Shown piece after piece: positions 2,974-28,884 of a stretch of DNA of 32,131 bases. This stretch comes from a virus: IMG/VR virus record IMGVR_UViG_3300027608_000094, positions 1 through 32,131 of that record. The stretch is one strand, 5' to 3'. Numbering within the stretch: position 1 is the stretch's first letter; each line of letters begins with the position of its first letter. The notes below the pieces were generated by a model. The model saw only the letters and a list, made by a program, of their open reading frames with translations. It was not told the origin of the DNA and did no database searches. The position numbers and the translations under genes are program-made.

Positions 2974-3890
2974 TGGCTAGTTTAAGTATTCCAAACTCAT
3001 TTACAAACAACACGGTAGCCAGCGCTACCGAGGTTAACGCAAACTTTACATCTGTAAAAAGTTTTGCGGAAACTGCTCTTGTACAAGTTGATGGTTCTGT
3101 TCAGGCCCCTACTGCTGCTATTGCAAACTTGGCTGTCACTACAGCAAAGATTGCTGACTTGAATGTTACTACGGCCAAGATAGCTGATGCTTCTATTACT
3201 GTTGGTAAACTTGCTGCTGGTGTAGCAATATCTGGTCCTACGGGTCCTGCTGGTCCTACGGGTCCTACGGGTCCTACGGGTCCTACGGGTCCTACGGGTC
3301 CTACAGGTCCAGCAGGAACTAATGGAACTAATGGAACTAACGGCGACACAGGTCCTCAGGGTCCTGCAGGTCCTGGTGCTAACCAAGACTTAAACACATA
3401 CAACCGTGTTACTCATACAGGTATATATTTAAGTGGTGGCGACCCAATAAACTTCCCCACCGAGTTTTCATTGACCAGTTCAGCATCTGTTAAGGCAATG
3501 GTTATAAGGTCGGACGGTTATGTTTGTTCCAACGCATCTAGTTCTGTATCACGCAGAGAGTACAAGGAAAATATCCGCCCAATAGGTGACTCTCTAGAGA
3601 TAATCAATTCTTTAATTCCAAGAAATTACAAATGGAAAGATAGCCATGTAAATACTGATTATGCTGAAGATGTTTACAGTTTGAAAACACAAGACCAGTA
3701 CGGTTTTATTGTTGAAGAAGTTGCAGAAGTCTTACCAGATTTAGTGCATCACGAACTTAAAGAAGGTGTATACATTCCTTTAATGTGGAAAGAATCAGCA
3801 GTGCTTACATTGGCTGTAAAAGCCATACAAGAACTGTCTGCTAAAGTAGATTCTTTAGAGTCACGATTGGCTGCGTTAGAATCTAAATAA
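2973..3890 (+). CDS. Collagen-repeat tail fibre with S74 self-cleaving chaperone
   Basis: A 305-residue trimeric fibre. Residues 50-80 have the TTAKIAD repeat common in phage fibres; residues 88-134 are a collagen-like Gly-X-Y run, mostly GPT, with GTN units; the C-terminal 113 residues are an intramolecular chaperone of peptidase family S74. In that domain the Ser-Lys pair of the family is visible as S193-R-R-E-Y-K198 (five-residue spacing, as in endosialidase chaperones), followed by IIN-L-PRNYKWK, a [15 protein letters not shown] motif and a terminal coiled coil ([20 protein letters not shown]). Cleavage would fall just before S193, releasing the chaperone after trimer folding. The family assignment is strong; host receptor and cleavage in this protein are inferred. 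Confidence 0.85.
3234..3343 (+). repeat. 9-bp tandem repeats coding for GPT and GTN collagen units
   Basis: GGTCCTACG repeats almost without change from 3252 to about 3305 and then gives way to GGAACTAAT repeats. Both encode collagen-like triplets of the fibre protein at 2973-3890. Near-identical codons make this a likely site of repeat-number change by slippage or recombination. Confidence 0.9.
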
Positions 3891-4272
3891 TGGCTACAGA
3901 AACACCAAGGAACAATCCACCAATACAAGGATGGACCGCACCGCTGCTAGAACAGTTGCGTTCTGCAGACGCACGCACCTTACAGCATGTTTTCACATCA
4001 TTAAAAGATTACCTAGGTGGCGTACAACAAACCATCAGCTCAAACTATTACGATCTAAACATCGGGTCTGTATCTGCGGGAACAGCTGGCGCATCTATCA
4101 CAGGAACATTCCCAAGTCAAACATTAAACCTGACATTACCTACAGGCCCTACTGGACCAACAGGTCCTACAGGTCCTGCTGGTCCTAATGGTTTCTCTTC
4201 TTTAAACCTTGATGGTGGAGCACCAGATTCTATTTATGGTGGAACACCACTAGTTGATGCGGGGTATGCATA

Positions 4273-4273
<1 letters not shown>
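3890..4273 (+). CDS. Short collagen-repeat fibre protein
   Basis: A 127-residue protein. The N-terminal 60 residues contain [21 protein letters not shown], a likely helical attachment segment. A short Gly-Pro-Thr run (residues about 85-99) follows, then a tail with [21 protein letters not shown], a short Gly/Asp-rich ending. It sits between two other collagen-repeat fibres with one-base TAATG overlaps on both sides. It may be an adaptor fibre onto which the larger fibre assembles, or a decoration spike; the sequence does not decide. Confidence 0.7.
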
Positions 4274-5217
<944 letters not shown>

Positions 5218-10185: not shown

Positions 10186-13100
10186 ATGGCTAACCCTTAT
10201 TATGACCAGCGTTACGCAATGGCTAGAGCCATGCGTGAACAGAAACAAACACAGCAGGGGCAAGGACTTGCTCCTTTGGCTCCCGCACCTAGTGCGTCAG
10301 GTTTGGCATACAGTCGCCAGGCTGCCAGTATGGTGTCTAAGAACCCGTCTCTGAGAGACGCTATTGATGCTATTGGTCAGGGTAAGCCTCAGGAACCTAA
10401 AGGTTTGCTTGGCAGTGTATTGGGGAACCCTATAGCACAGGCTGGTCTTAAAGGTTTGCAGGCTATTACTATCCCAGCTAGAGTTGTAACCTCTACGGTC
10501 AGAGAAGCTGTTGATGCTATTGATGGTGACAAGAGCACTAAAGCTTCGTTTGGTGATTTTACTTCACAAATTAAAGACCCCAATTTCCGTGTTGGTACTG
10601 GGTTCAATATTGATACTGGTAATAAGTTTGCTGATGGTGCTCTTGGTTTTATTGGTGACGTTGCTTTGGACCCTATTACTTACATGACTTTTGGTGCTGG
10701 ACATATGGGTGGCTATGTTGGTCGTTTGGATCTTGCTACTAGAATTATGCGTACTGGCGATAGTGCGTTGGCTGGCGCTGTAGCCCGTGAGGGGCGTTCA
10801 GCGTTGATTGGTCAGGCTGCTAAACTTGAAGAAGTTGGTGCAAACAAGTTTGGTGTTTACATGTTTGGTAAGCGTATCAAGGTTGGTGTAAACCAAACTG
10901 GTATTCGTATTCCTATGACTGGACATATGGGTCAGATGGGTGAAAAGTTTTTGTCTAAAGTCCGTCTAGGTATTACAGATACAAAACTGGGTGAACGTCT
11001 GCAGAGAATGACTATGCCCAAGGATTTTCTAGAGGCTCGTCTTGCTGTTGCTCGTGGTACTGCTTCTCCTGCTGTTTCCGAGGGCTTGCTTAAAATGCTT
11101 CAGGTTGGTGCTGGTCAGAAAGCGTTCAGAGGCTCAGCCTTGAATGCAATTACAAACGAAGTTAATGGTATCTTGAAACAGGAAACCGATTTGGGTAATT
11201 TAGAATCATATAGAAAGACTGTGTATAGGTTTTTGCAGGATCCTTCTTTGATTGATACTGCGTCTGATGCCGAGGTTGCTGGGTTTAATGCATGGAAAAC
11301 TTGGCTTGCTACTCAAGCCGAAGTTGTTCAAAACGGTTGGCGTTCTATTGACCCTACCGCTGACATTGCTATGCGTACAAACTATTTCCCTCAAGTAATG
11401 ACTGAGGGCGCTATTTCTTACGCTAAAAGCGAAACACGCCATGGTCAGAAGTTGCGTGAAATTTTAATGGCTGATCCTTTTGCTAACCCTGATTCGTTTA
11501 CACCTAGATCCCTTGTTCCAGAGAAAGAATTTTTTGGTCATATTCTAAAAGTTGAAGATATGAATATTGATTCTTTAAACCGAATTGCAAACAATGGTGG
11601 CTTTACTGGTGAGTTTTTTGAAACTGATGTTGTTGTTGCAATGCAAAAATACAGTTCAGACCTTGCCGACGAGTTAGGTATCATTGAACGCAATAGGTTG
11701 TTGACTGAGGCTGGGTTCTTTAAGCAGATTGAAGAGCAGCGTATTGTGCAGACATCTGTAGATGCGGATGACGTTGCGTTGGCACGTGCTAGAGTTACTG
11801 AGATTAAAGCAACTATGGATGGCGCACAGGCTAGCATGGTTACGAAAAACGACGAACTTATTACTACGTTAAAAGAAGCTTATAACAATAACGTTATGAA
11901 TGTTCACACTATTGACGAGACTGGTGCTTTGATTGATGACGCTTTGCGTCAACATCAAACATGGGTGGCTGGTACTAAGCGTGCTATTGAGGAAGCCAAA
12001 ATAAAGCTTTCTACACTTCATGGTCCTGCGGGTGAGATTGGTGCAGCTAATGTTTCTGACGCTTTCCCTGCCACGTTGTTTCCTGTTCTTCGTGAGTACG
12101 ATAGTATACTTAATGAGATTTCTGTTTATGAATCAGCAATAGATGACTTGATTGCAAAAGGCGGTCAGGAAGTTAACAACGATTATCTGCTTGCGGAATC
12201 TATTGATTCGCTACAGCAGCGCATGAAAGAGTTGACTGACAATATAGAGTTAAGCAATGAGTCTATTAATAGCGCCATGTCTATATCTAATATTATTGAA
12301 AGCAACTGGGAATCTATTTCTTCTGGTAGGAACCCTCGTGTTACACAGGGTGATGGCATATACAAAACCATTCGTGAGATTCTTGGTTATGGGTCAGCAA
12401 AAAGACCTCAAGATCAGCTTAGAAAAATTACTGATCAAATAAAAGTTCCTGGTGTTGAAAAAGTTTCTGCCAAAACTGGCAAAACAACCATTGACAGAAG
12501 CTTCAAAGGGTTTATTGATTCTCCAGAGTTTAAAGGTTTGCTTGATGAACTTTCTGGTGAGACGTGGGCAAACGATGCCGCTATATCCGTAGACAGACTT
12601 AAACGTATTAGTTTGCCTGAACATGAAGAAACTTTAAATAAACTTTTGGCTAGTGATGTTTCTTTAACGGAGATGCGCACACAAGCTATTTATGCTATTG
12701 CTCGTGATGCCCATCTTTATGGTGGTAGGCTTCCTGAAACTTTGCAAACATTTTACTATCGTTTAGTTAGAGAAATTCAAGCCTCTGCAGAGGTTGATAG
12801 TATTGCTAAGCGTTTGGCTAGTAAAAAAACAAACTCTAACTTAAAGGCGTTTAAGGACATTTGGGATAAACCAATGCGTGCTGCCACTAGAATCAATGAA
12901 GAACACGGAATGATGACAGAACTTTTAAACTCTGTCAGGCGTGCGGCTGCTTCACACGACAAAGCGCTTGGTCTTAATTTTGTTCCTACAAAAACTAGTA
13001 TAATTCCATTCACCGAAGAACACATAGGCACAATGGCTTCAATTGCTGCATCTAATGGCAAAAATGAGGACGACATTGCTTTTCTTCTTGGTAGTTATCT

Positions 13101-16100
13101 TGATAACGCAGAAGAGTTGCTTGGAACATCTACTCCTACTGTTGGAGACCTATTTTCTGCAATAGAGAAAAGATTTTTAGAACTAGACACACAACTTAGA
13201 ACTCCTGCTTATGAATTTGGGGCTGGTAAACTTAAAAGAGGTACTATCCTTTCTGAGCGTAGACTTTTGAGTGCAAAAGATGTTTTGGAAGAACATGGAG
13301 AAGCATTAGCTAAAGCTAAAAAACTTGACAAATCAAACGCTGACGATTACATTTTTCAATCAACTACCGTTGATGAATCTAGAATTTCTTTGTCTGCTTC
13401 AGCAATGAAGTATGCAGCAATATCTGATGCTGTACGCAAGTTTGAAGCTGTATCTCTTGTATTAGCTCCTCATGGTTTGAACGTTTCTGAAGATATGTGG
13501 CGTGGTATTTTAAAGACTAGTCACAAAAAGTTTGGTCAAGGGGTTGGACAGAAAATGTCCAACCTTGTAACTACTGAAAATCTTCTTAGGGAAATGCAGT
13601 TTGACTATCACAGGATATTTGCTGCTGGTAATACACCAGAAGCAATAGCTGCGGGTCTTGGAAAGAGCCAGCATGATGCCTTTGTTGAGGCATATACAGT
13701 TGCGTTGTCTAAGGATGGTGGAGAGAATCTTCGAGAAGTAATTGGTAAGCATTTAAATACTGTGGATGCAGATGGTAATGCAATGCTTCTTGACCCAGTT
13801 GATATGGCTTTAAAGATCAAGTCTTTGACTTCTGTTGAAAGAGGGGCTGCTACTGGGCTTCGTGGTGGTACTGTTACTGCAGCGGAGAAAGCTTTGGCTA
13901 CTCAGAATCTTAAAGCTTATTTTAAGGATGTTGTTATTCCTTGGGCCAAACAGGTTAATCCTTCAGAGTCTGCTACTGTAGAGGGCGCAAAGAGGGTTAT
14001 AAAGCAGTTTGTTGAATCTACTAACAAAAGGGCTGTTGCTGCTAATGTTTCCCCTTTGAGTGTTCGTGCAGAATCTAGAAGTGTTGAGAAATGGTTTAGT
14101 CAGTTCTTTGATGTTATTAAACCAATTGATTACTACGATGATGCTGGGCGTTTGGTTCGTAAAGAGTCTAAAACACCAGGCCTTCTTAGCGAGATTCATG
14201 ATTCGTATTCTAAACACTTTCTTTTCTTTAACGATCTAAATGATGGTTATCTTGATGTTGGTGCTCTTTTAGATGGTGCTCGTAGGCAATATTTTACAAC
14301 TACTCCTTCCTCTTATGGTTTGCAAATGGCTAGACATGCTAAAGAACTTCAAGATGCTGTAGACCAGATTGTTAGCAGGAAGCTTGTAAAGGAAAACGCT
14401 AAACTTATAAAGGGTGCCGCTGCTGCTTCTGATGAAGCATACAGGGCTCAGGAGCTTCAGTCTGCGTTTAAGAACCCTGATCTTTCTGAGGCTGCACTTA
14501 AAGAACTTGGTTTTACTAAGGACATGAAAAAAACTAGGGATGCTGTTCTTGCACACCAGGCTTACACAAGCACTGGGGCATATGCTAAAGCTCTTAGTGA
14601 TAAGGAAACTGTGGAGTTTCTTGATAGTGCGGCTTTGTATGACTTTGGTTTGTTTGATGAGGGTTTTGTTGTTGGCAGTAAAGAAGTTCCTGTTTATCAG
14701 GATACGGTTAAGGATGTTCAACGTGTTGCTGTTGCAGCTAAGCGTGAAAGCGTGGCTAAGGCCATGCAGGCTGTTGATGATGAAGAAAACAGATTGCTTC
14801 TTGAGATAAGTAGGAAGTATGTTTTAAATCAAGACGATGCTGTACGGACTGCTAAACGTTTAAGAGACCCTAAAGAAGCCAATAAGACTTTAAAATTTAA
14901 ATCAGCTGAAGCAAGAACTGCTTATAGGCGTGAAATGCAGGCATACGAAACTCGTAGCAAACCTACGTTTGATGCACGTCGTGCTTCTATTCAAAGAGAC
15001 CTTGACGAGCTTCCAGTTACAGACAACACTACTGTAACACTTCCAGAGGGTGAAGTTCCTGCGTTTACTCCTAGAGCACGAACACAGATAGACACAAGAA
15101 ACGAACCTGTATTTGCTAAAATGCCTGATGGCCAGCGTATTATTTTTTCTAAGGCAGAGAGTGAGTCTTTGTTTGCTACTCCTTTGCTTCCTTTGGAAGT
15201 CAAAGCAGTTAAGGGTGAGATTCGGGTTATCAAGGCACGCATAGCAGAGATTGATAGACTGTCTGCTGTATATAAAAACAACAATGCAAGGCTTGTTGGT
15301 TTGGATCGAGAAGCAGAGTCGCTTGCTGCAAGTTTGGCTCCTTTGGAGTACAAACTTCTTGTTTCAGATATGGGTACTAGACAGATGGCTTTGTATAAGG
15401 TGTCTCAACTTGTTCATGGTAATCATTTCCCTGTTGCTGCTACTAGCACGGCGGAAGAAGCAGCTAAGGCTGCAGAGAATGCCGCAAGTGCACGTACTAA
15501 CTTCTTGCAGGGTTGGAGCAACATTGACGCTCCTTACAAGCGTAAGCGTGGAAAGCTAACCAAAGATCTTAAATCGTCGCAGAGGGTTGAAGCCCCAGCT
15601 GGGGACTTGAAGGCAAATACAACAGTGTCTTATTATATTAATCGTGACAATGTCCGCCATGGTGTAACCCCTCCTGTTGTTGGTAGTGCCCCAACAGAGT
15701 GGCAGAGAACTCAGACGATTATTGAATCGTTGAATCAAAACTCAGAAAAATCAAGTAAGGCTCTTCTTGATTTTGCTGCTTTGAAAGAGTCAGAACGTCT
15801 CGCTAATCAGGCTATTGTTGATGACGGCTTGCACTTTACACCATCTAGGTATACTTCTCAAATGGATGTTGGTGTGCGCAGAAACACACTTCAAACAAAC
15901 TGGAGTCGCACTACAGAGGCGACTATTATTCGTGAAGAAGAAGAACTGGCTAGTTTGGCTGCTCAAAACAGAACTATGCAGGCTGTCAATAGTGAATCCA
16001 AGCTTCTTCAAAAGGCTGCTACTGATGCACGTAAGATTGCTGATGAATCAACTACAGAGTTGGATGATCTTCAAATGGCGCTTAGAAGCAATGCAAGATC

Positions 16101-18372
16101 TATTTCTACTTTAGAAACTCAAGCACTTGAAGCTGCTGGTATTAAAAAAGCTGTTGACATTACAGAGGTTGGTCCTCGTGCTTCTTATACTGTTGGTAAC
16201 AAAACTTATTTAGTTCCTAGTTTTACAGAGATGCTTAGCAACCCATCTAAATGGGCTAGAGAGTATCTTGCTCCAGGTGTGCGTGGAGGCAAGCCTGGTG
16301 CTAAGTATAAACTGTTTGATGAACTTACTAAACCTATTATGAGACCAGCGTTTACTGAGGTGAAGAAACTGCAACTGCACGAGCAAGCTGCTTTTGCTAT
16401 GCAAATGGCTCACTCAGCATTTGATGATGGTGTTCTTCTGAATGTTAGACGGTTCCAATTGTCTGGTGCTGGTGAACGTATCTCGGAGATTCAGAATCTT
16501 TTAACTTCCCACATGTCTGATGCTGCTACTCTTAGTAGGTCTATTGAGTCCGCCAGGGATGCACTCAGAGTTGAACAGCAGTTAGCTCAGAAAGAGTTGA
16601 CCAAGGCAAGTCTTGAAAGCGTAATTGGTCCGCCAGGAATGGTTGTTACTACATCTGGTGGAAAGAATATAAATATTTCTCAACTTGAAACCGAACAAGA
16701 CTTCTTCCAGTTTGCTGAAGAAATTAAACAACTGTATAGTTCAACTTTAACACCTGAACAAATTCTTAGCAACCCAAACAACCTTGTTGCAACATTGAAA
16801 CATCGTCAATCGATGTTTGACCAGTTGGATGCTGCTGGTCTTTGGGATAACGATTTGGCTACGAGGATTAATCAGTGGAAGTTTGACAACAATACCGTCA
16901 TGCGTGCTATCGTTGATGGTGCTGACGACCCTGAAGGAATGGCAGTTGCTTCTGCTATTGCACAAGCACAGGTTGCTGAAGGTAGGTTCTTCACTGAACA
17001 ACTAAGAGCTGGTGAAGCACAGATAGCATTAAACAATGCATTGACTCCTAGAGAAACGTCAAAGATGGTTAAACAACTTGCTGATGGTTTTGTATCTGCT
17101 GGACCTAAGTTTAATCTTCCTGGTTTGCAAGCAAACGAAGAAGCAGTAAACATCATTACCAACATGGCACGTATCAGTGATGGGCGCACAGCACGTGAAC
17201 TAGGACAGTTCTTGAGCAAATACACAAGCTTCTTTAAGGCGTACTCTACTTTGAGTCCTGGTTTCCATGTCAGAAACGCAATGAGCAACACATTCCAAAT
17301 GTTTGCTGCAGGTGCAGAAGCCAAGAACATGATCGAAGGTTTGCGTTTGTACACTAGCTTTGGTGAAACGTTGCGTCGTGGTGGAAACATTGACGAGTGG
17401 CTATTGACCGTTCCTGAGGCTCTAAGGCCACAGGCCAAGATTGCTTCTGACGTACACATGGCTTTAGGTGGCGGTAGAGTTGAGGATGCTTTTAGTGACT
17501 TCGTTTCTACTAACAAGATTGCTTTGGCTGACAACAAGTTAACTCAATCATCTAGAAAGCTTGGTAACCGTGTTGAGGGTTCTGCTCGTTTCACTTTGGC
17601 TTTTGACTCTGCTCAAAAGGGAATGGATTTCTATTCTTCGTTTAACAAAACAAAACGATTCTTGTTTGACTACAGTGAGACAAGTGCGTTGGATGATTCA
17701 GTTAAAAACATTGTTCCTTTCTGGACGTGGATGAGTCGCAACTTACCTCTTCAAATTACTAACCAGTGGAATAACCCTAAGCCATATATGATTTATAATC
17801 ATTTTGCCGCTAACTTTGGTGTGGGCAAGGATGAAGTTGTTCCAGATTGGATGAGAGCACAGGGTGCTTTGAGTATTGGTGGGAGTAAGTATTTAACTCC
17901 AGACATGCCGCAACTTAAAGCGCAGGAAATGATTCAACAGTTGAACTCACCTAAGAAAATGCTTTCTTATGTGAACCCGTTGATGCGTGTTCCTTTGGAG
18001 TTGGCTGGTGGTACTAAGTTCTTTAATGATTCTAAGTTCTCTGGCAAATACACAGTGCTTGAGGGAAAGTGGGCTCCTCTTATTCCTCTGCTTGCAGCTA
18101 TTGGACAGGTTGAAACAAACGATAAGGGGCAGTACATCACTCCTGATAAAGCCATTTATGGTTTGACTTCTATGATCCCAACTTTGGGTCAGGCTGACCG
18201 TCTGTTTCCTAGTTCTGACTTGTCTGGTGGGGATGGTTATGCTTTCCAGAGGTATCTTGGTATGCCTGTTCGTGGTGTAGACGCTGAAGCTAAGGATAAT
18301 GTTTTGAAGCAAAAATTAAATCAACTGCTTGCTTTGCAGGCTAAACAAAACCAAATGAATAAGGCGGGTTAA
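10186..18372 (+). CDS. Giant internal virion (ejection) protein, 2728 residues
   Basis: By far the largest gene. The first 150 residues include helical, Gly-rich stretches (ALGFIGDVALDPITYMTFGAGHMGG). The bulk is alternating long helices and coiled-coil segments rich in Ala, Leu, Glu and Lys. The C-terminal 400 residues have the pattern SPGFHVRNAMSN near residue 2359, an RFLFDYSETSALDDSV segment, and VPFWTWMSRNLPLQ near 2510-2523. That last combination recurs in very large virion proteins of unrelated phages, where it marks the C-terminal region. In T7-like phages the large internal proteins leave the capsid and build a trans-envelope channel, and the same role is likely here. I see no RNA polymerase or lysozyme catalytic motif, but with this size one could be missed. 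AAAAGG 11 bases upstream is the only ribosome-binding candidate. Confidence 0.8.
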   Translation: MANPYYDQRYAMARAMREQKQTQQGQGLAPLAPAPSASGLAYSRQAASMVSKNPSLRDAIDAIGQGKPQEPKGLLGSVLGNPIAQAGLKGLQAITIPARVVTSTVREAVDAIDGDKSTKASFGDFTSQIKDPNFRVGTGFNIDTGNKFADGALGFIGDVALDPITYMTFGAGHMGGYVGRLDLATRIMRTGDSALAGAVAREGRSALIGQAAKLEEVGANKFGVYMFGKRIKVGVNQTGIRIPMTGHMGQMGEKFLSKVRLGITDTKLGERLQRMTMPKDFLEARLAVARGTASPAVSEGLLKMLQVGAGQKAFRGSALNAITNEVNGILKQETDLGNLESYRKTVYRFLQDPSLIDTASDAEVAGFNAWKTWLATQAEVVQNGWRSIDPTADIAMRTNYFPQVMTEGAISYAKSETRHGQKLREILMADPFANPDSFTPRSLVPEKEFFGHILKVEDMNIDSLNRIANNGGFTGEFFETDVVVAMQKYSSDLADELGIIERNRLLTEAGFFKQIEEQRIVQTSVDADDVALARARVTEIKATMDGAQASMVTKNDELITTLKEAYNNNVMNVHTIDETGALIDDALRQHQTWVAGTKRAIEEAKIKLSTLHGPAGEIGAANVSDAFPATLFPVLREYDSILNEISVYESAIDDLIAKGGQEVNNDYLLAESIDSLQQRMKELTDNIELSNESINSAMSISNIIESNWESISSGRNPRVTQGDGIYKTIREILGYGSAKRPQDQLRKITDQIKVPGVEKVSAKTGKTTIDRSFKGFIDSPEFKGLLDELSGETWANDAAISVDRLKRISLPEHEETLNKLLASDVSLTEMRTQAIYAIARDAHLYGGRLPETLQTFYYRLVREIQASAEVDSIAKRLASKKTNSNLKAFKDIWDKPMRAATRINEEHGMMTELLNSVRRAAASHDKALGLNFVPTKTSIIPFTEEHIGTMASIAASNGKNEDDIAFLLGSYLDNAEELLGTSTPTVGDLFSAIEKRFLELDTQLRTPAYEFGAGKLKRGTILSERRLLSAKDVLEEHGEALAKAKKLDKSNADDYIFQSTTVDESRISLSASAMKYAAISDAVRKFEAVSLVLAPHGLNVSEDMWRGILKTSHKKFGQGVGQKMSNLVTTENLLREMQFDYHRIFAAGNTPEAIAAGLGKSQHDAFVEAYTVALSKDGGENLREVIGKHLNTVDADGNAMLLDPVDMALKIKSLTSVERGAATGLRGGTVTAAEKALATQNLKAYFKDVVIPWAKQVNPSESATVEGAKRVIKQFVESTNKRAVAANVSPLSVRAESRSVEKWFSQFFDVIKPIDYYDDAGRLVRKESKTPGLLSEIHDSYSKHFLFFNDLNDGYLDVGALLDGARRQYFTTTPSSYGLQMARHAKELQDAVDQIVSRKLVKENAKLIKGAAAASDEAYRAQELQSAFKNPDLSEAALKELGFTKDMKKTRDAVLAHQAYTSTGAYAKALSDKETVEFLDSAALYDFGLFDEGFVVGSKEVPVYQDTVKDVQRVAVAAKRESVAKAMQAVDDEENRLLLEISRKYVLNQDDAVRTAKRLRDPKEANKTLKFKSAEARTAYRREMQAYETRSKPTFDARRASIQRDLDELPVTDNTTVTLPEGEVPAFTPRARTQIDTRNEPVFAKMPDGQRIIFSKAESESLFATPLLPLEVKAVKGEIRVIKARIAEIDRLSAVYKNNNARLVGLDREAESLAASLAPLEYKLLVSDMGTRQMALYKVSQLVHGNHFPVAATSTAEEAAKAAENAASARTNFLQGWSNIDAPYKRKRGKLTKDLKSSQRVEAPAGDLKANTTVSYYINRDNVRHGVTPPVVGSAPTEWQRTQTIIESLNQNSEKSSKALLDFAALKESERLANQAIVDDGLHFTPSRYTSQMDVGVRRNTLQTNWSRTTEATIIREEEELASLAAQNRTMQAVNSESKLLQKAATDARKIADESTTELDDLQMALRSNARSISTLETQALEAAGIKKAVDITEVGPRASYTVGNKTYLVPSFTEMLSNPSKWAREYLAPGVRGGKPGAKYKLFDELTKPIMRPAFTEVKKLQLHEQAAFAMQMAHSAFDDGVLLNVRRFQLSGAGERISEIQNLLTSHMSDAATLSRSIESARDALRVEQQLAQKELTKASLESVIGPPGMVVTTSGGKNINISQLETEQDFFQFAEEIKQLYSSTLTPEQILSNPNNLVATLKHRQSMFDQLDAAGLWDNDLATRINQWKFDNNTVMRAIVDGADDPEGMAVASAIAQAQVAEGRFFTEQLRAGEAQIALNNALTPRETSKMVKQLADGFVSAGPKFNLPGLQANEEAVNIITNMARISDGRTARELGQFLSKYTSFFKAYSTLSPGFHVRNAMSNTFQMFAAGAEAKNMIEGLRLYTSFGETLRRGGNIDEWLLTVPEALRPQAKIASDVHMALGGGRVEDAFSDFVSTNKIALADNKLTQSSRKLGNRVEGSARFTLAFDSAQKGMDFYSSFNKTKRFLFDYSETSALDDSVKNIVPFWTWMSRNLPLQITNQWNNPKPYMIYNHFAANFGVGKDEVVPDWMRAQGALSIGGSKYLTPDMPQLKAQEMIQQLNSPKKMLSYVNPLMRVPLELAGGTKFFNDSKFSGKYTVLEGKWAPLIPLLAAIGQVETNDKGQYITPDKAIYGLTSMIPTLGQADRLFPSSDLSGGDGYAFQRYLGMPVRGVDAEAKDNVLKQKLNQLLALQAKQNQMNKAG

Positions 18373-18373
18373 C

Positions 18374-18814
18374 ATGAAGTATTATAATTGGCAGAAACCA
18401 ACGAAACTTGACTACGTGAAGTTTCGTGTTGCGTCACCGAACCTTGAGGTGTTGAATCGCTATTTGGCGAAGCGTTGGGGTGGTACTAACCTGGGGATTT
18501 TTGTGAAGCGCCCTGTTCGTGGTGGCACTGTTCCTTCTACTCATTCGTTTGGAGCGGCTCTTGATTGGCGCTACGACACCCGTGAGGAGGGTAAAGAAGT
18601 CATGGATTGGATAGTACTCAATCATGAAGTACTGGGAATCCAAGTCGTACAAGACTATGTTGGTTGTTGTATTTGGATTGCTGGTCGTGGCTGGAAAGCA
18701 GCTACACCAGACTCTACAGGCTTTGGTCAGCCGTGGGCTAAGTGGATACATGTTGAAACCTCACGTGAGTCTTGGGGAGACAAACGCAAGGTTTCAGAAC
18801 GTATCAAGGGTTAA
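18374..18814 (+). CDS. M15-type peptidase, probable endolysin
   Basis: A 146-residue protein. The zinc site of the M15/VanY-like peptidases is visible: S55-T-H57-S-F-G60-A-A-L-D64 (SxHxxGxAxD) and W124-I-H126-V-E128 near the end, giving His57, Asp64 and His126 as ligands and Glu128 as the likely catalytic base. These enzymes cut peptide bonds in the peptidoglycan stem or cross-bridge, so this is the probable host-lysing enzyme. It starts two bases after the giant protein and closes the rightward arm. No signal peptide, so release needs a holin, which I do not identify. Its stop overlaps the convergent stop of the leftward arm. Confidence 0.8.
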   Translation: MKYYNWQKPTKLDYVKFRVASPNLEVLNRYLAKRWGGTNLGIFVKRPVRGGTVPSTHSFGAALDWRYDTREEGKEVMDWIVLNHEVLGIQVVQDYVGCCIWIAGRGWKAATPDSTGFGQPWAKWIHVETSRESWGDKRKVSERIKG

Positions 18815-19243: not shown

Positions 19244-19431
19244 TCTACTTCGGCTTGTTCCTTGCGCATTGAATCTTCAATCTTGGTTGCTGTTTCAACA
19301 ATTGATTCCACTGCTGGTGCCCCAAACCTGTCTTCAAGGTAGTGGATGATTGCAAAGATGTTTGCAACAATCCAGTACACATCTACTGGTTCTTTCTCCT
19401 CTGTATTAGCTATGTCCTGGTGTTCTGTCAT
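19240..19431 (-). CDS. Unknown acidic 63-residue protein
   Basis: A small acidic protein with a hydrophobic core helix (VDVYWIVANIFAIIHYLEDRFG) and a charged C-terminal helix (VETATKIEDSMRKEQAEVE). No family recognised. AGGAG lies seven bases before the ATG, inside the end of the sigma-like gene, with which it overlaps by 26 bases; its own stop forms an ATGA with the next gene. Chain of overlaps indicates one transcript and coupled translation. It may be a partner of the upstream regulator, but there is no direct sign. Confidence 0.65.
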   Translation of the reverse strand: MTEHQDIANTEEKEPVDVYWIVANIFAIIHYLEDRFGAPAVESIVETATKIEDSMRKEQAEVE

Positions 19432-20311
19432 AATCTTCTCCTAACTGAAGGTTGAATGTTTCGTCAATCAACATTAGGGCTACTACGCAATATCCTACGA
19501 TATCGAGAAGCGTGTCAAACACTGATTCGTTTTTTGCATATTTGTTTTTAAGGTTTGCATACCGTTCTACTTTGTCTGATAGGCGTACGATGATACCGTA
19601 CAGCCCGAACTTGTTTATATTTTCGTGACCGTAATCATATTGTTTACTGCACAGTGTTTGGAACACTGTTTCTAAATCCCATGACTCAATAATTTTTAGT
19701 TCGTTAAGAGCAGATACAGCCATGTATTCAAATAGTTTTTGTGCGCCATGCTCTGGGGATGTGGTTCTCTCTGCTACTATTAATGCTCTGATCCATGTCC
19801 TTAGTGATGGGATGTCTGCTCCTGCGAGGACGTACATGTCTGGTTCAATGTGTGATAGGTATGACAGCCACTGCATGGCTGACTGGTCCCATGTGGTTGC
19901 TACTCGTACTGATTTTCTGATTGTTGTGTCGTTGCTCATTGTTTCCTTGAGTTTCTTGAATGCTTGGTTTCGTAAACGCCAAACATGTGTTTTGGTTATT
20001 GATAGTTCGTCCGCTATGGACTGGAGTGAACGGCCCTCGTTCATGAGGGCGTTCACAATCCATTGTTCCCTGGGGGGTAGTTTGTCTACATGCATCATCA
20101 CTGCGTCACGTAGTTCCATTAAACCATCTTGTGGTTCGTATGGTTCTTCGTGAGGCATGGTTTCCATTAACGCTTGGTATTCGTTTTCTGGAAGCCTGTA
20201 ACTAGTAGACCTTATTTGACTACGGTAGTTTTCAGTGTCGTGATTATTGGGGCTGTCTGTGTACTGCATTGGCGGTGGCATCGTATTTCGTTGGTTCAGA
20301 TGGGAAGTCAT
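19406..20311 (-). CDS. Sigma region 4-like HTH fused to Nmad1/DUF1599-like domain
   Basis: A 301-residue protein of two parts. Residues 77-125 match sigma-70 region 4: LPPREQWIVNALMNEGRSL, then SIADELSITKTHVWRLR and QAFKKLK, the helix-turn-helix that reads a -35 box. Residues about 212-285 match the pattern of the nucleotide-modification-associated domain Nmad1 (DUF1599): YDYGHENINKFGLYG, VRLSDKVERYANL, then ESVFDTLLDIVGYCVVAL, with conserved Tyr, Gly, Asn, Arg, Asp and Lys. No sigma region 2 is present, so it is not a full sigma factor. The start used, 20311, overlaps the upstream gene by 68 bases and has no clear ribosome site; ATGs at 20281 and 20269 are alternatives. It could be a regulator responding to nucleotides, or a domain shuffle. 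Confidence 0.7.
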   Translation of the reverse strand: MTSHLNQRNTMPPPMQYTDSPNNHDTENYRSQIRSTSYRLPENEYQALMETMPHEEPYEPQDGLMELRDAVMMHVDKLPPREQWIVNALMNEGRSLQSIADELSITKTHVWRLRNQAFKKLKETMSNDTTIRKSVRVATTWDQSAMQWLSYLSHIEPDMYVLAGADIPSLRTWIRALIVAERTTSPEHGAQKLFEYMAVSALNELKIIESWDLETVFQTLCSKQYDYGHENINKFGLYGIIVRLSDKVERYANLKNKYAKNESVFDTLLDIVGYCVVALMLIDETFNLQLGEDYDRTPGHS

Positions 20312-20729: not shown

Positions 20730-21069
20730 GTTTTGTTACCAGTAGTCGTTGGACGAGTTTATCGTCGGTGTATGCAATGCCGTTCAATCCGTCCAGGATT
20801 GATTTGGCATAGTTGTCGATATCTCCTCGCAGTTTACTCGCTGGTCCATCTAGCGTTTTAACTGTAATAGTTACCTTGTCTTTGTATAAGCCTATCACCA
20901 TGCTGACTGGGGTGTCAGCGCATGGTCCATGCCAAGATGACCCAATGTATCTTTCAAATACAAGGGTCTGTTCAGGGGTGAATACTCTGCCTCTCCTGCC
21001 AAGCCGTGGGCGTTGTTTAACCTTTGGCTTGACGGGAATGGTTTGTTTGTGATTGATTGGTTCGGTCAT
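20722..21069 (-). CDS. rusA: RusA-type Holliday junction resolvase
   Basis: A 115-residue protein of the RusA family, dimeric nucleases that cut four-way junctions. The acid cluster is visible as GDIDNYAKSILDGLNG: D83 and D85 correspond to the two conserved aspartates, K89 to the conserved lysine, and the YTDDKLV element (D102, D103) to the third acid. The N-terminus has the basic KQRPRLGRRGRVFTP strand of the family. It overlaps the primase stop in an ATGA and the next gene by eight bases. It would resolve branched replication intermediates before packaging. The family call is strong. Confidence 0.85.
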   Translation of the reverse strand: MTEPINHKQTIPVKPKVKQRPRLGRRGRVFTPEQTLVFERYIGSSWHGPCADTPVSMVIGLYKDKVTITVKTLDGPASKLRGDIDNYAKSILDGLNGIAYTDDKLVQRLLVTKHE

Positions 21070-21989
21070 GGTGTTCCCATTGTAATTACGTATGCTCTTT
21101 CTATTAGTTTGATTAATTCTGATTCACCGTCTGCTCTGTCTTGGAACTTACCCCATCGTGCATCTGCTGAACGCACAACCACCAACGCTTCGTTGGGTGG
21201 TATGTTTGCGTCACGCATCTTGCATGCGAGCCTAAACAATGTGGAGGAACGATCGTTTCCTTCTATTGGTCCGTCTCTCCACATGATGTATGGTATGGCT
21301 CCAACTCTGCGCAGGATTTGTTTGATGTCTGCGTTGTCTTCGGTGTTGGTTATATGTACTCGCTGCGGAGGACGCCATAGGTTGGCTAGTGTGTCCAGCT
21401 GTGCTTCCGTGGTTAGGTTGGCGTTGGCTTCATTCAGGAAGTCTGTTAGTGACATAATGTTTTCATCGTTGTCGAGAATGTAGCGTTCTGCTGGTGTTTC
21501 CTTGCGGGCGTTAGGATAGGGTAGGCGTACATAGTTGCCGTAGCCTGTTCCTGCTGTCTCTTGCTTCGGGTTTACTTCCTTGGCTGGGTAGTTGATTGCT
21601 TGGTGGGCTGCAAGGAATGCTCTGCGCATTGTTGCGGCTGGCACTACCGAGTCTGCGAACACCCAGATGTGATATCCTTTGCGTGTTCGTTCCACCCATG
21701 ATGTTATTCCTTTAACGGCGAAAGACATCTGCAAGTTGCGTGCTGCATCTAGGTCTTCTACGTCAATGTCTGAACATCCCCACACACAATACCAGCTGGC
21801 TTTGTATGGTAGTAGTGGGTACACACCGATTAGTTCGTCACCTTGTAGGTGTTCCAGGAACTTGTCTTGTGTTAGTGGCTGCTTGACGCATCCACCACCC
21901 CATGAACCGTATACGTCGCCTCTGCCTCTGAATAGTTTTGTAAACGATTCTAGAATGGCTGGGCTGATGGTAGTTCCGCTTGACTCCAT
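21066..21989 (-). CDS. AEP-type DNA primase with C-terminal helical domain
   Basis: A 307-residue primase of the archaeo-eukaryotic superfamily, making primers for replication. Motif I is CSDIDVED (D74 and D76), motif II GYHIWVF (H107), followed by EVNPKQ and the GNYVRLPY strand. The C-terminal part (DRSSTLFRLACKMRDANI to SELIKLIERAY) resembles the helical domain often attached to these primases. An upstream in-frame ATG at 22040 would add 17 residues and a 91-base overlap with the helicase gene; the start at 21989 is preferred because AAGGAG lies six bases before it. It sits between helicase and RusA, a typical replication order. No polymerase gene is in the window, so it may also extend. 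Confidence 0.8.
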   Translation of the reverse strand: MESSGTTISPAILESFTKLFRGRGDVYGSWGGGCVKQPLTQDKFLEHLQGDELIGVYPLLPYKASWYCVWGCSDIDVEDLDAARNLQMSFAVKGITSWVERTRKGYHIWVFADSVVPAATMRRAFLAAHQAINYPAKEVNPKQETAGTGYGNYVRLPYPNARKETPAERYILDNDENIMSLTDFLNEANANLTTEAQLDTLANLWRPPQRVHITNTEDNADIKQILRRVGAIPYIMWRDGPIEGNDRSSTLFRLACKMRDANIPPNEALVVVRSADARWGKFQDRADGESELIKLIERAYVITMGTP

Positions 21990-23017
21990 TGTGCGCTCCT
22001 TAAATACTGGTCGGGTAGTTCTCCGTTCTTGAGTTCCCATAGTCGTCCTGTTTTAACATCTATCTCGAAATCCACATCGTCAACTAGCATTCCTGCTGGT
22101 CGTTTATTTTTTAGCAGAGACAGAGTGATTGTGTACTCGTGTACTTTCTGGTCGTACATGAGCATCTCTAGACGCTCTTGTGCTTTCTCTGTGTGGTTTC
22201 TATCTAGGCGTTCTCTTAGGTCGTTTATTTCTGCTCCGATTTCCATCTTCTTTCGGCGTACGCCAATGATCGATGTTGCTTGTTGTTCTCCACCGTAGGC
22301 ACCTGAGGAGATGGTTAGTTTGCGTCCATCTGCTCCTGAGGTTCGTGAGGTTTGGTGTAGTACTAGCATTGGGATGTCGTGTCGTCTGCCGAATCCTTTT
22401 AGGAATCCTGCTTTCTCGGGTACTTGTTCTCCTGCTTCTACAAGTTCAAGGTAGTCAACTACTGCTAGGTCGGGCTTGTCGCCCCACACATCACACACTT
22501 CGTTGTATGCTCGTTCCATGTCTGCTGGTATCAGTGGTTGGTCAAAGACTGCAAGGTTGGGGAAGTCCTCCTCTGCTGTTTGGCGCAGTAGGTCAATGGC
22601 TTCCTTGTCGTCGTTAGCGACACGCATCTCTAGTTGACGTGCATCAATGTTGTGATGCATGCATGTCAGTTTAGTTAACACGAGTGTCTTGGGTTCATCG
22701 GGGATGAACAACGCTATCTTCTTGTCTCTGTTGTTGCGCAACGCATGCAACAGCACCAGTGTCTTACCACCGTGGCTGTATCCGAGCATCATTGCTAGTT
22801 CTCCTGGGGCTATGCCACGCATCTCAGCATCTAATGGCTCTATGCCTAGATAAACTCTGTCTTGCGGTGATTGTGCCCAACGCACATACGAGTGTGCTGC
22901 TTCTGTGAGTGGTACGTAATGGCGGTACTCTTTAGGAATAGAAGAAGCAGGGGGCGTGGTACCCCCTGCCTCAACTTCGTTCCAACCCGCCTGTATTTGA
23001 TCAAGCGAGAGTCTCAA
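21950..23017 (-). CDS. DnaB-like replicative helicase (RecA-fold ATPase)
   Basis: A 355-residue protein with a RecA-type motor: Walker A GYSHGGKT (K85, T86), an acidic residue after strand 2 in IPDEPKT (E108), Walker B DLAVVDYLELV (D188) and a sensor strand MLVLHQTSRTSG (H221, Q222). This matches the C-terminal half of hexameric DnaB-like helicases; the usual N-terminal domain is reduced to about 60 residues. It starts at a TTG with AAGGGAG six bases upstream (MRLSLDQIQ); no ATG lies nearby in frame. It would unwind the fork with the AEP primase encoded next to it. RadA-like function is the alternative, less likely in this context. Confidence 0.8.
   Translation of the reverse strand: MRLSLDQIQAGWNEVEAGGTTPPASSIPKEYRHYVPLTEAAHSYVRWAQSPQDRVYLGIEPLDAEMRGIAPGELAMMLGYSHGGKTLVLLHALRNNRDKKIALFIPDEPKTLVLTKLTCMHHNIDARQLEMRVANDDKEAIDLLRQTAEEDFPNLAVFDQPLIPADMERAYNEVCDVWGDKPDLAVVDYLELVEAGEQVPEKAGFLKGFGRRHDIPMLVLHQTSRTSGADGRKLTISSGAYGGEQQATSIIGVRRKKMEIGAEINDLRERLDRNHTEKAQERLEMLMYDQKVHEYTITLSLLKNKRPAGMLVDDVDFEIDVKTGRLWELKNGELPDQYLRSAQWSQAELPSAQPF
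21996..22001 (-). promoter_or_regulatory. Ribosome binding site fixing the primase start at 21989
   Basis: AAGGAG six bases before the ATG at 21989, inside the end of the helicase gene. It decides the shorter primase start. Confidence 0.8.
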
Positions 23018-25021: not shown

Positions 25022-25594
25022 TCAGCGTCTCTGACGGGACTTGGCGACCACCTTGTCCCACGCTGTCCAAGGCGCTGGGACGGGTGGTTTGAGGTAGTCG
25101 TTGTTCTTGATGCAGCCCCAGCCGTTAAATCCAACTGGCTGTTGAAAGTAACCGTTAGGAGCCAACCATCCATGCAACGCAATCCTGTTCGCAATAGTGA
25201 TTTGCTCTAGCCGTGTTGCGAGCCATTGCTTGGGTGCGAACTCTTGTCCACCCCAGCCCCGCCATGTCTGTATATAAATACCGAGCCCACCAGCGAATTT
25301 GCCACGGTCTTTCCAATTGCTCGCAGTTTCGCATTGAGCGACTTTGTCCCAGTATTTGTTGCTAGGTCGTTTGAGTGTAGCCAGCCACGATATATCCCAC
25401 TTACTACTGTTTCGTGCTTGTATCGCTTTGGTGTGGACTTGTGGTGCTTGTGTGGTAGATGTGACAAGAACATATTTAAATTCTTTCTTTATTGTTGATT
25501 GTGTTACTGCTTTGGCAGGTGTGTTGTCCGACAGCCAGAAGGCTAGCGTTAGTGTTAATACTAATAGTAATTTAAGTATTATAGATTTGTTCAT
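25022..25594 (-). CDS. Secreted Rpf-like muralytic protein
   Basis: A 190-residue protein with a signal peptide (residues 1-29, hydrophobic LLLVLTLTLAFWL, cleavage after A-K-A). Residues about 80-162 match the transglycosylase-like fold of resuscitation-promoting factors: YWDKVAQCETASNW with C88 and catalytic Glu89, then FAGGLGIYIQTWRGWGG, APKQWLATRLEQITIANRIA, and GWGCIK with C161, which would pair with C88. Rpf proteins are typical of Actinobacteria and cleave peptidoglycan. In a phage this could loosen the host wall, aid release beside the M15 enzyme, or wake dormant hosts. GGGAGA lies eight bases before the ATG. It is on the same strand and downstream of the amidoligase genes. Family call strong; role inferred. 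Confidence 0.85.
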   Translation of the reverse strand: MNKSIILKLLLVLTLTLAFWLSDNTPAKAVTQSTIKKEFKYVLVTSTTQAPQVHTKAIQARNSSKWDISWLATLKRPSNKYWDKVAQCETASNWKDRGKFAGGLGIYIQTWRGWGGQEFAPKQWLATRLEQITIANRIALHGWLAPNGYFQQPVGFNGWGCIKNNDYLKPPVPAPWTAWDKVVAKSRQRR

Positions 25595-26716: not shown

Positions 26717-27691
26717 CTAGAAGAACCAATCGTTGGTAGAGTCGTAATTGCCTTTGGCGTGTGACGGCACATACAGTTGCGACTGCTTGAAGTCGTCAAC
26801 AACATCAGACTGTGCACCCATACACCTGCACAACATTCTGTCCTCTGAACAGAACCAACAGCAGTCACATTGTGAACACAGGTCAGCATAGTTTACGCTT
26901 TCCTCGCTGACATACTCAATGTGGTCACAGTTGGCGCAACGCCACAACTCGCCCCACACCTCGTTACCGTCCTTGTCAACATAAGTGCAATCCTCAACAA
27001 GTAAAGATTGGTTGTCCCATATGTCGTTGTCGTACTTGGCATACTTGGTTGTGTCAATACTGTACCGTGAATCAGGTGGTGTCTTACCAGTAGATGTCCA
27101 GCCAGTAGTGTACATACCATGTCCCGAGTAACTGAAACGGTCATACTTGTAACTATTGTTTGACCACCACACACCCTCAACCCAATGCCCGTCGTTCTCG
27201 TTGATGATGTAATAGTCATCTTGAACATCAGGATTGGCAGACAAGAACACAAGTTTAGAACCATCAGCGAACTTGGATAGTTTCTTGCGTGTCTTCTTGC
27301 TGTTGAGTGTTGACGCACCACCCCAACTAGGGAATAATTCCTTAGCAAAGATAGCGGTGTCACTCATACCGTTGCGAGCCGCAATCGGCAACATGCCGTT
27401 GTGTGCTACAACCGTGTTAGTGTCCCTGCCAACTTGGAATGGGTGACAGTTGTTGATGTTGGTACCGCCGTGTGTTGTGATGCGGGAGTGAAACAACGCA
27501 GGACCCGAATGAATTTCTCGTGTCTTGAGGAAGTTATCTAACACGGCATCAAAGTTGAGACCGCTACCTTTCACAATGTGTGTACCAGCATGAACAGCGT
27601 AACCAAACCCGTCAGGGTTGTTCTGTGAACCAATAGTTAATGAATCTACATCCGCTGTTGTGTACTCTTGCATGAATGTTAATAAACACAT
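26717..27691 (-). CDS. Class II glutamine amidotransferase with C-terminal Cys cluster
   Basis: A 324-residue protein. The N-terminal half is an Ntn-hydrolase glutaminase: Cys2 as nucleophile in MCLLTF, NPDGFGYA, then FHSRITTHGGTNINNCHPF (R70, N81), AHNGMLP (N98, G99) and SDTAIFAKEL (D111). These are the standard class II residues, which release ammonia from glutamine and pass it to a partner. The C-terminal third has Cys at 252, 255, 272, 275, 277, 278, 281, 288 and 290, enough for two zinc sites. It lacks a synthase domain, so the acceptor partner is probably the amidoligase encoded five bases upstream. No Asn synthetase, PurF or GlmS partner is visible. Function in the phage is inferred. 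Confidence 0.8.
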   Translation of the reverse strand: MCLLTFMQEYTTADVDSLTIGSQNNPDGFGYAVHAGTHIVKGSGLNFDAVLDNFLKTREIHSGPALFHSRITTHGGTNINNCHPFQVGRDTNTVVAHNGMLPIAARNGMSDTAIFAKELFPSWGGASTLNSKKTRKKLSKFADGSKLVFLSANPDVQDDYYIINENDGHWVEGVWWSNNSYKYDRFSYSGHGMYTTGWTSTGKTPPDSRYSIDTTKYAKYDNDIWDNQSLLVEDCTYVDKDGNEVWGELWRCANCDHIEYVSEESVNYADLCSQCDCCWFCSEDRMLCRCMGAQSDVVDDFKQSQLYVPSHAKGNYDSTNDWFF

Positions 27692-27696
27692 ATTTC

Positions 27697-28884
27697 TTAT
27701 ATGCCTTTCGTTGTGGCGTAAGCGTCAAACGCTTCGTAGCCGTTCTGTTTAGTGAATTGACGGAAACGATCCCAGTCATGACTCTCTCGAATCTTGATGT
27801 TGAACATTTGTGTGACGGCGTACTCCGCAACAGCGTGTACACCCTCTAGTCGTGCTTGGATTGTCTTAGGGTTAAGCGTACCCTTGAAGAAACGCAACTC
27901 TAATGTGTGGCGTGGCTGTAAGTTGAGCGCAACATAACGGTCGTTGTTGGCTTGTCGTTGATTGCCAGGGCGTAAGCCCTTGGCGTAACGCAACATCTGT
28001 GTCGCTTCGTGCTCATCCCATTGTGCGTATGTTGAACGACTACGACCAGCAAGAATCTTCCACTGCTCGGTGTTGTTGTAGAACATAGACATGAAACGAT
28101 ACAGCGATGACTCTCTGCCCTCAAAGAAACCCTTGTTGATGTGAACATGAAGCCCACAGGTTCTTGTAGTAGCAGAACGCATACCCATGTCAGACAACTC
28201 ACGCAATCGTGCGAGAGGCAACACGCTCTGTATGTACTCTTTCGTCATGGGGTGAGATACAACCTCAAACCCATTGCTAAGAGAACCGTCATGCTTGAGA
28301 TAACAAGAGTCACCAAAGATATCTGTCGCAAGTTCTGCACCATCGCTAATGTCGCAACCATCTGCTTCCATTTCCAACTCAAAGCCAGTCACACTAATGC
28401 GTCGTGGTTCTCGCATTGTTGTAAACATCTTGATTTCCTTGGTTAGAACATCAGGACGCATACCGTGAAAGACAGGGTCAGGACGGAAACTGTAGTCGTG
28501 AATGAGTCGTGAACTTTCTTCTCGTTCATCGTCACATGAACATTGAGGTCCGTCATCTATGTTGTAAACACCGTCACAGTATTCACAACTTCCGTACTGG
28601 TCGTAACACGATGGGCAACGCATCTCGTCCCAACCGATGTCCATCATCTCGTCACGCTCAACATACAACTGGCAGTCGTTGCAGTATTGGTATTCGTCAT
28701 CGCAATCCGAACAGAAATACTGTGCGTTACCTGACTCTCGTGCTTCGTTGATGTCCTGTCGTCGCCAGTATGAAGTGTTCTCGTCAAGACGAATAACTAA
28801 TGCTTCAATTAGATGTTCGTCAGCGCAGATACAGCATGTCGCTAGCAGGCTTGGTGGTTCTTGTTCTGTTTCTTGTGTTGTCAT
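27697..28884 (-). CDS. Amidoligase with N-terminal zinc-finger array
   Basis: A 395-residue protein. Residues 15-120 hold 13 Cys in CxxC-type pairs (17/20, 58/61, 68/71, 90/93, 100/103, 115/117), suggesting three or more zinc knuckles. Residues about 165-360 match the putative amidoligase family (PF12224) of the COOH-NH2 ligase superfamily: TGFELEMEADG (E169, E171), LKHDGSLSNGFEVVSHP (H198, D199, E207), TCGLHVHIN (C243, H246, H248), RYVALNL and LELRFFKGTLN. These enzymes join a carboxylate to an amine with ATP, as glutamine synthetase and gamma-glutamylcysteine ligase do. AGGAGG lies five bases before the ATG and the palindrome 28918-28935 is 34 bases upstream. Substrate unknown. Confidence 0.85.
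   Translation of the reverse strand: MTTQETEQEPPSLLATCCICADEHLIEALVIRLDENTSYWRRQDINEARESGNAQYFCSDCDDEYQYCNDCQLYVERDEMMDIGWDEMRCPSCYDQYGSCEYCDGVYNIDDGPQCSCDDEREESSRLIHDYSFRPDPVFHGMRPDVLTKEIKMFTTMREPRRISVTGFELEMEADGCDISDGAELATDIFGDSCYLKHDGSLSNGFEVVSHPMTKEYIQSVLPLARLRELSDMGMRSATTRTCGLHVHINKGFFEGRESSLYRFMSMFYNNTEQWKILAGRSRSTYAQWDEHEATQMLRYAKGLRPGNQRQANNDRYVALNLQPRHTLELRFFKGTLNPKTIQARLEGVHAVAEYAVTQMFNIKIRESHDWDRFRQFTKQNGYEAFDAYATTKGI

Follow-up and report, generated by a model that had tools for sequence, protein, structure and literature searches.

Amidoligases paired with glutaminases recur across unrelated phages, and the question of what substrate such pairs act on dates from comparative genomics in 2009. 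The same question is raised by two genes in the viral DNA analyzed here, a stretch of 32,131 nucleotides covering positions 1 to 32,131 of IMG/VR record IMGVR_UViG_3300027608_000094 (the window). The first gene (27697-28884, minus strand) encodes an amidoligase of 395 residues, a glutamine synthetase (GS)-type COOH-NH2 ligase with an N-terminal cysteine array. The second gene (26717-27691, minus strand) is located 3′ of the ligase and encodes a class II glutaminase (GAT) of 324 residues. Five bases separate the ligase stop from the GAT start, and the coordinates, strand and gap are all as described in the initial annotation of this DNA.

The combination of an amidoligase with a GAT is already known in phages, and the minimal two-gene form with putative zinc modules is a new variant of it. 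Our main reading, to which we give a probability of roughly 0.58, is that the two proteins form a two-subunit glutamine-dependent amidating enzyme with zinc docking modules, the target of which would be a host component or incoming DNA.

The amidoligase

The ligase matches the Amidoligase_2 family of Pfam (PF12224) with an E value of 2.6e-9 and a score of 37.7 bits, against a curated cut-off of 22. The catalytic core comprises about residues 160-360 (27805..28407, minus strand) and carries the motifs GFELEME, HDGSLSNGFE, CGLHVH, and ELRFF. As had been proposed from the sequence, this core follows an array of 13 cysteines (residues 17-117; 28534..28836, minus strand). In an alignment of 103 ligases, residues E169, E171, D199, S201, E207, H246, H248, R281, R316, N321, E329 and R331 are kept in every sequence. 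Loss of catalytic residues, raised early on as the observation that would speak against the amidoligase reading, is not seen in this alignment, and the reading stands. Of these, E169, E171, E207, H246, H248, E329 and R331 presumably belong to a GS-type active site, with roles assigned from knowledge of the superfamily.

The AlphaFold model of the ligase has a mean pLDDT of 89. The top Foldseek matches of this model are YbdK, glutamine synthetase, gamma-glutamylmethylamide synthetase (GMAS), PafA and Dop. Its TM-scores against experimental structures of GS-type enzymes are low, at 0.3-0.4. Such values are expected when a relative is distant and carries an additional cysteine region, and the assignment of the fold is therefore based on the E values, the probabilities and the conserved motifs combined. 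By this combined evidence the ligase is of the glutamine-synthetase-type fold, with ATP-dependent ligation as its predicted activity. A match to AddA (E=0.013-0.023) is taken as chance.

The glutaminase

The GAT matches GATase_4 (PF13230) with an E value of 3.9e-7, which exceeds the curated Pfam cut-off. Its Ntn glutaminase domain corresponds to residues 1-180 (27152..27691, minus strand), and the residues Cys2, Arg70, Asn98, Gly99 and Asp111 are invariant in an alignment of 81 GATs (81/81). The intact Ntn site (Cys2, Arg70, Asn98, and Asp111) and the nine-cysteine tail noted in the initial annotation are thus both present, the former without exception among the relatives. The AlphaFold model has a mean pLDDT of 80, with residues 186-228 and 307-324 poorly modelled. 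Foldseek aligns this model with the glutaminase of GlmS (1xff) at an E value of 1.3e-8 and a TM-score to the target of 0.54, and in a profile alignment the GAT matches GlmS at the motifs HTRWATHG and HNG. Structure prediction of the pair was suggested earlier as a check; the models of the single proteins place the ligase with GS-type enzymes and the GAT with GlmS. The GAT is of the class II, GlmS-type glutaminase fold as modelled, and it is predicted to release ammonia to its partner.

The pairing of a ligase with an Ntn hydrolase, in the manner of EgtA and EgtC, is established in ergothioneine biosynthesis, and this precedent allows a different chemistry for the two proteins. The ligase would add a gamma-glutamyl group to an amine, which the Ntn hydrolase would later remove or transfer, and free ammonia would not be involved. 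For the ligase, the Foldseek matches include YbdK, which is related to gamma-glutamyl-cysteine ligases, and for the GAT they include EgtC, as this chemistry would have it. However, the GAT scores better with GlmS (E value of about 1e-8) than with EgtC (2e-4), and it has the RWATHG and HNG motifs of GlmS. We give the EgtA/EgtC-like chemistry a low probability. The glutamine-binding residues alone do not distinguish a GlmS-like from an EgtC-like GAT.

Cysteine modules on both proteins

The cysteines of the ligase array are located at positions 17, 18, 20, 58, 61, 68, 71, 90, 93, 100, 103, 115 and 117. The nine cysteines of the GAT tail (residues 252-290; 26822..26938, minus strand) are at positions 252, 255, 272, 275, 277, 278, 281, 288 and 290. 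The other genes of the window have a cysteine content of 0.58%, and relative to this value the binomial probability of the excess is about 3e-13 for the ligase array and about 2e-11 for the GAT tail. Chance enrichment is ruled out by these probabilities together with the conservation of the cysteines among relatives.

The cysteines of both modules are conserved at protein identities of 30-40%. Ligases of different relatives vary in how many CxxC motifs they have, but the module formed by C68, C71, C90 and C93 is almost universal (98-103 of 103). In the GAT, C252, C255, C272 and C275 are found in 81/81 sequences and C278, C281, C288 and C290 in 78-80 of 81, following the pattern CxxC-x(mostly 12-16)-CxxC-xx-CxxC-x(mostly 4-8)-CxC. 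Two or more CxxC motifs occur in the ligase N-terminus in 116 of 133 pairs and in the GAT tail, which usually has four, in 123. Comparisons with close relatives give dN/dS values of 0.05-0.09 for the GAT tail and 0.15-0.19 for the ligase cysteine region (one of the three comparisons being saturated), showing at the sequence level that both modules are under purifying selection. A degenerate enzyme pair is excluded by the invariant catalytic residues and this purifying selection.

From the CxxC pattern we infer that both modules bind zinc. The ligase array has a weak profile match to LIM domains (E=0.005). Comparison of the ligase module with the GAT module by hhalign gives a probability of 54%, with the two in register and the cysteines in identical order; the control, an unrelated Zn-ribbon protein, gives 1-5%. 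This similarity is suggestive only of a common origin of the two modules. The initial annotation considered the zinc modules as docking sites for a large target; a role in joining ligase and GAT to each other is equally possible.

Distribution and co-evolution of the pair

Relatives were collected by IMG/VR searches with an alignment of each protein, in which at least 548 stretches were found for the ligase and at least 217 for the GAT; the best 80 were kept in each case, and distant relatives are under-sampled because only the best matches were retained. The survey of gene order covers 133 non-redundant pairs from IMG/VR and known phages, among them phiEco32 and the copy in the window, and a few of the pairs are truncated.

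In about 130 non-redundant viral loci, found with either gene as the seed, the ligase and the GAT are nearly always adjacent. Searches from the ligase lead to loci with the GAT and searches from the GAT to loci with the ligase, the exceptions being mostly at contig ends. The ligase precedes the GAT, and the gap between them has a median of 2 bp among the 133 pairs. This gene-neighbor survey of related phages had been proposed at the outset, and it bears out the functional pairing suggested then, as do the correlated distances of the two proteins. The distance matrices of ligase and GAT have a correlation of 0.92-0.97, compared to 0.31-0.92 between either gene and five control neighbors (an ATPase/helicase, WhiB, a metallophosphoesterase, an exonuclease and one gene of unassigned function). 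The partial correlations between ligase and GAT are 0.57-0.92, the lowest being with the exonuclease, whose history tracks the pair most closely. In a gut phage (L022), the GAT beside the ligase is from another class II subfamily and is without the cysteine tail, as read by eye, and the pairing therefore outlasts a swap of the partner. No third gene is constantly linked to the pair among the surveyed loci, which makes ammonia from the GAT the simplest nitrogen source. The pair is, judged from these sequences, a real and widespread module with a predicted function.

The pair is found in isolated phages, namely Marvin and its relatives and the Methylophilales phages MEP401/402, and in the assembled podovirus genome ctgrD200. 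It is also present on three mycobacterial plasmids (L203, L204, and L205) and in Labedaea, Nocardia and Mycolicibacterium (L175-L177), where it lies in a chromosome or contig; the cysteine tail is kept in these copies outside phages. The pair therefore serves non-lysing elements as well, which suggests that its function is not bound to virion production or lysis.

Several loci depart from the two-gene arrangement. In Nocardia (L176), one GAT is flanked by two ligases. A second, shorter amidoligase, without the cysteine array and with the catalytic motifs kept, is located upstream of the pair in four loci (L113:5978-6610, L137:3062-3940, L147:5563-6423, and L148:3118-3957). The C. difficile phage AR1086-1 (L021:7665-9854) has a related ligase without an adjoining GAT, and the ligase may therefore use another amine there. 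Next after this ligase is a gene for an RlaP-type RNA-repair nucleotidyltransferase; upstream lies kptA. In an Atopobiaceae MAG (L191:5173-7218), ligase and GAT are in a single open frame of 681 residues. This fusion is set aside as evidence: the catalytic cysteine of the GAT would be internal and the junction resembles a shifted frame or an internal start, which is the probable explanation because the GAT needs a free N-terminal cysteine.

Comparison with known systems

A close layout in an isolated phage is that of gp105/gp106 of Marvin (Marvinvirus), both of which are labeled 'glutamine amidotransferase domain protein' in GenBank. The gene order, the amidoligase core and the class II GAT are the same as in the window, and so are the cysteine-rich N-terminus of the ligase and a GAT tail, with eight cysteines in Marvin. 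The window pair shares the Marvin-type arrangement, in which CxxC modules precede the ligase core and follow the GAT domain. In comparison, the two pairs have about 30% identity, the gap in Marvin is about 80 bp instead of 5, and the ligase of Marvin is extended at the C-terminus, with a shorter cysteine array. The suggestion that cysteine arrays are a peculiarity of this genome was overstated, as they are constant in a large phage family that includes mycobacteriophage Marvin; the occurrence of the pair in about 130 loci rules it out.

The cassette of phiEco32 and LUZ24 also has an Amidoligase_2 gene beside that of a class II GAT, and primase/helicase genes are close by in the early region (for the LUZ24-type amidoligase cassette, see the UFV-P2 paper, PMC3890496). 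There are clear differences, however. That cassette includes an extra COOH-NH2 ligase (PF14395), an ATP-grasp enzyme and GGCT, and its GAT is far longer. Neither the second COOH-NH2 ligase nor GGCT (PF06094) was detected in 47 pair- or ligase-bearing records (0/47 for each), with LUZ24 and phiEco32 as positive controls for both; the window, an incomplete genome, is outside this set and its close relatives L001 and L006 are inside. An ATP-grasp (RimK-like) ligase was found in 0/33 records with LUZ24 gp21 as the query, which did find phiEco32 and was chosen because the Pfam RimK profile is too insensitive. With three cassette enzymes missing and the controls positive, the window type is ruled out as a member of the full phiEco32 cassette.

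In MEP401 and MEP402 (PMC10580990), amidoligase and GAT are neighbors and precede primase and helicase genes, as in the window. In contrast, the host is not an actinobacterium, the GAT is without a cysteine tail, and the ligase has a long extra N-terminal region with two CxxC motifs only.

Outside phages, the division of labor proposed here resembles that of MurT/GatD and AsnB/LtsA, where a glutaminase part feeds ammonia to an ATP-dependent part that activates a carboxylate. MurT is related to the Mur ligases and its GAT is of class I type, and LtsA is related to asparagine synthetase. The window proteins, a GS-type ligase and a class II GAT, are not of the same kind as either. Peptidoglycan amidation by MurT/GatD, with a glutaminase subunit and an ATP-dependent partner, is described in PMC3267633.

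Genomic context and possible targets

In the window, the pair is on the minus strand, opposite to the structural genes, and upstream of genes for an Rpf-like transglycosylase, a PD-(D/E)XK exonuclease, a DnaB-like helicase, an AEP-type primase and RusA. The transglycosylase (25022..25594, minus strand; PF06737, E=6e-13) is a neighbor outside the pair and supports the earlier assignment to an actinobacterial type of phage.

Two narrower forms of the amidating enzyme differ in the target. In the first, the pair would modify a surface polymer or a peptidoglycan precursor, by amidation or by addition of an amino acid, and so guard the infected cell against early lysis or competing phages (superinfection exclusion). 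Among 98 loci, a lysozyme-like gene is found at most 3.5 kb downstream in 63, and a WhiB regulator is nearby in 63. The phage WhiB of TM4 is linked with superinfection exclusion (PMC8612146). The phage amidoligase and GAT go back to Iyer et al. 2009, and a cell-wall or superinfection role is proposed according to PMC10580990 and PMC11318856; the former cites such a role, which Iyer et al. 2009 proposed for phiEco32. However, the operons of related phages share their synteny, which makes these neighbors weak and non-independent evidence. Moreover, the MEP phages, ctgrD200 and the plasmids are without the lysozyme-like and WhiB neighbors, and lipid-linked precursors are no obvious fit for cytosolic enzymes with cysteine arrays. 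A cell-wall target is possible, and we propose it only tentatively.

In the second, the zinc modules would bind DNA or RNA, and the enzyme would amidate or conjugate a nucleobase or a nucleic-acid-bound protein and so shield phage or plasmid DNA against the defenses of the host. The pair is on the replication-gene strand, and in the MEP phages it is just upstream of the replication genes. The plasmid and actinobacterial chromosome copies point the same way: two of them (L177 and L203) adjoin a 1,580-residue methyltransferase and SNF2-helicase protein, and in Labedaea a TrwC relaxase is 2.3 kb from the pair. On the other hand, no known DNA-modification enzyme is constantly linked to the pair in the surveyed loci, and the zinc modules have weak similarity to LIM domains, which bind proteins, and no strong match to a nucleic-acid-binding fold. 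Five proteins of the pair family have no match among the PADLOC models, which also speaks against a known anti-phage defense system. We regard a nucleic-acid target as unlikely.

Other features of the window are recorded here. The primase (21066-22040, minus strand) matches the archaeo-eukaryotic primase domain of the TOTE conflict system (E=1.2e-18). A Sigma-70 region 4 protein (19406-20311, minus strand) has a weak C-terminal match, below the cut-off (E=0.0019), to DUF1599, which is named 'nucleotide modification associated domain 1'. On the plus strand, a single ORF of 2,728 residues (10186-18372) is unusually long for a phage of about 40 kb and is followed by a probable peptidase-type lysis gene (18374-18814). 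Three consecutive probable tail genes (2973-5217, plus strand) contain collagen-like GPTGPTG and GATGATG repeats.

Proposed function and implications

In the proposed mechanism, ligase and GAT would work as one functional unit. The GAT would hydrolyze glutamine through Cys2, as its intact residues indicate, and the ammonia would pass to the GS-type ligase. Based on its fold and residues, the ligase would activate a carboxylate of the target with ATP and convert it to a carboxamide. The cysteine modules may serve as structural zinc-binding docking elements that hold the subunits, recruit the macromolecular target, or both. Given its place on the replication-gene strand, the unit is probably expressed early in infection, and it would modify a host component or incoming DNA. 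We are moderately confident of this enzymology. A literature search, with Iyer 2009 and Mageeney 2012 outside its scope, found no functional experiments on a phage amidoligase.

A bolder extension, which we think rather doubtful, is that the pair represents a mobile and self-contained amidation system of actinobacterial phages and plasmids, in which related zinc modules gather both enzymes and their macromolecular target, a protein or DNA. Such a system would counter host defense or exclude competitors, through an amidation of protein or DNA that is undescribed in phages.

The survey defines the minimal two-gene form of the amidoligase-GAT pair, and it provides the invariant residues and the zinc modules as targets for mutation. 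Phage Marvin in M. smegmatis mc2 155 is a laboratory system in which the substrate can be addressed directly. If the mobile amidation system is true, it would represent protein or DNA amidation of a sort that is new to phages.
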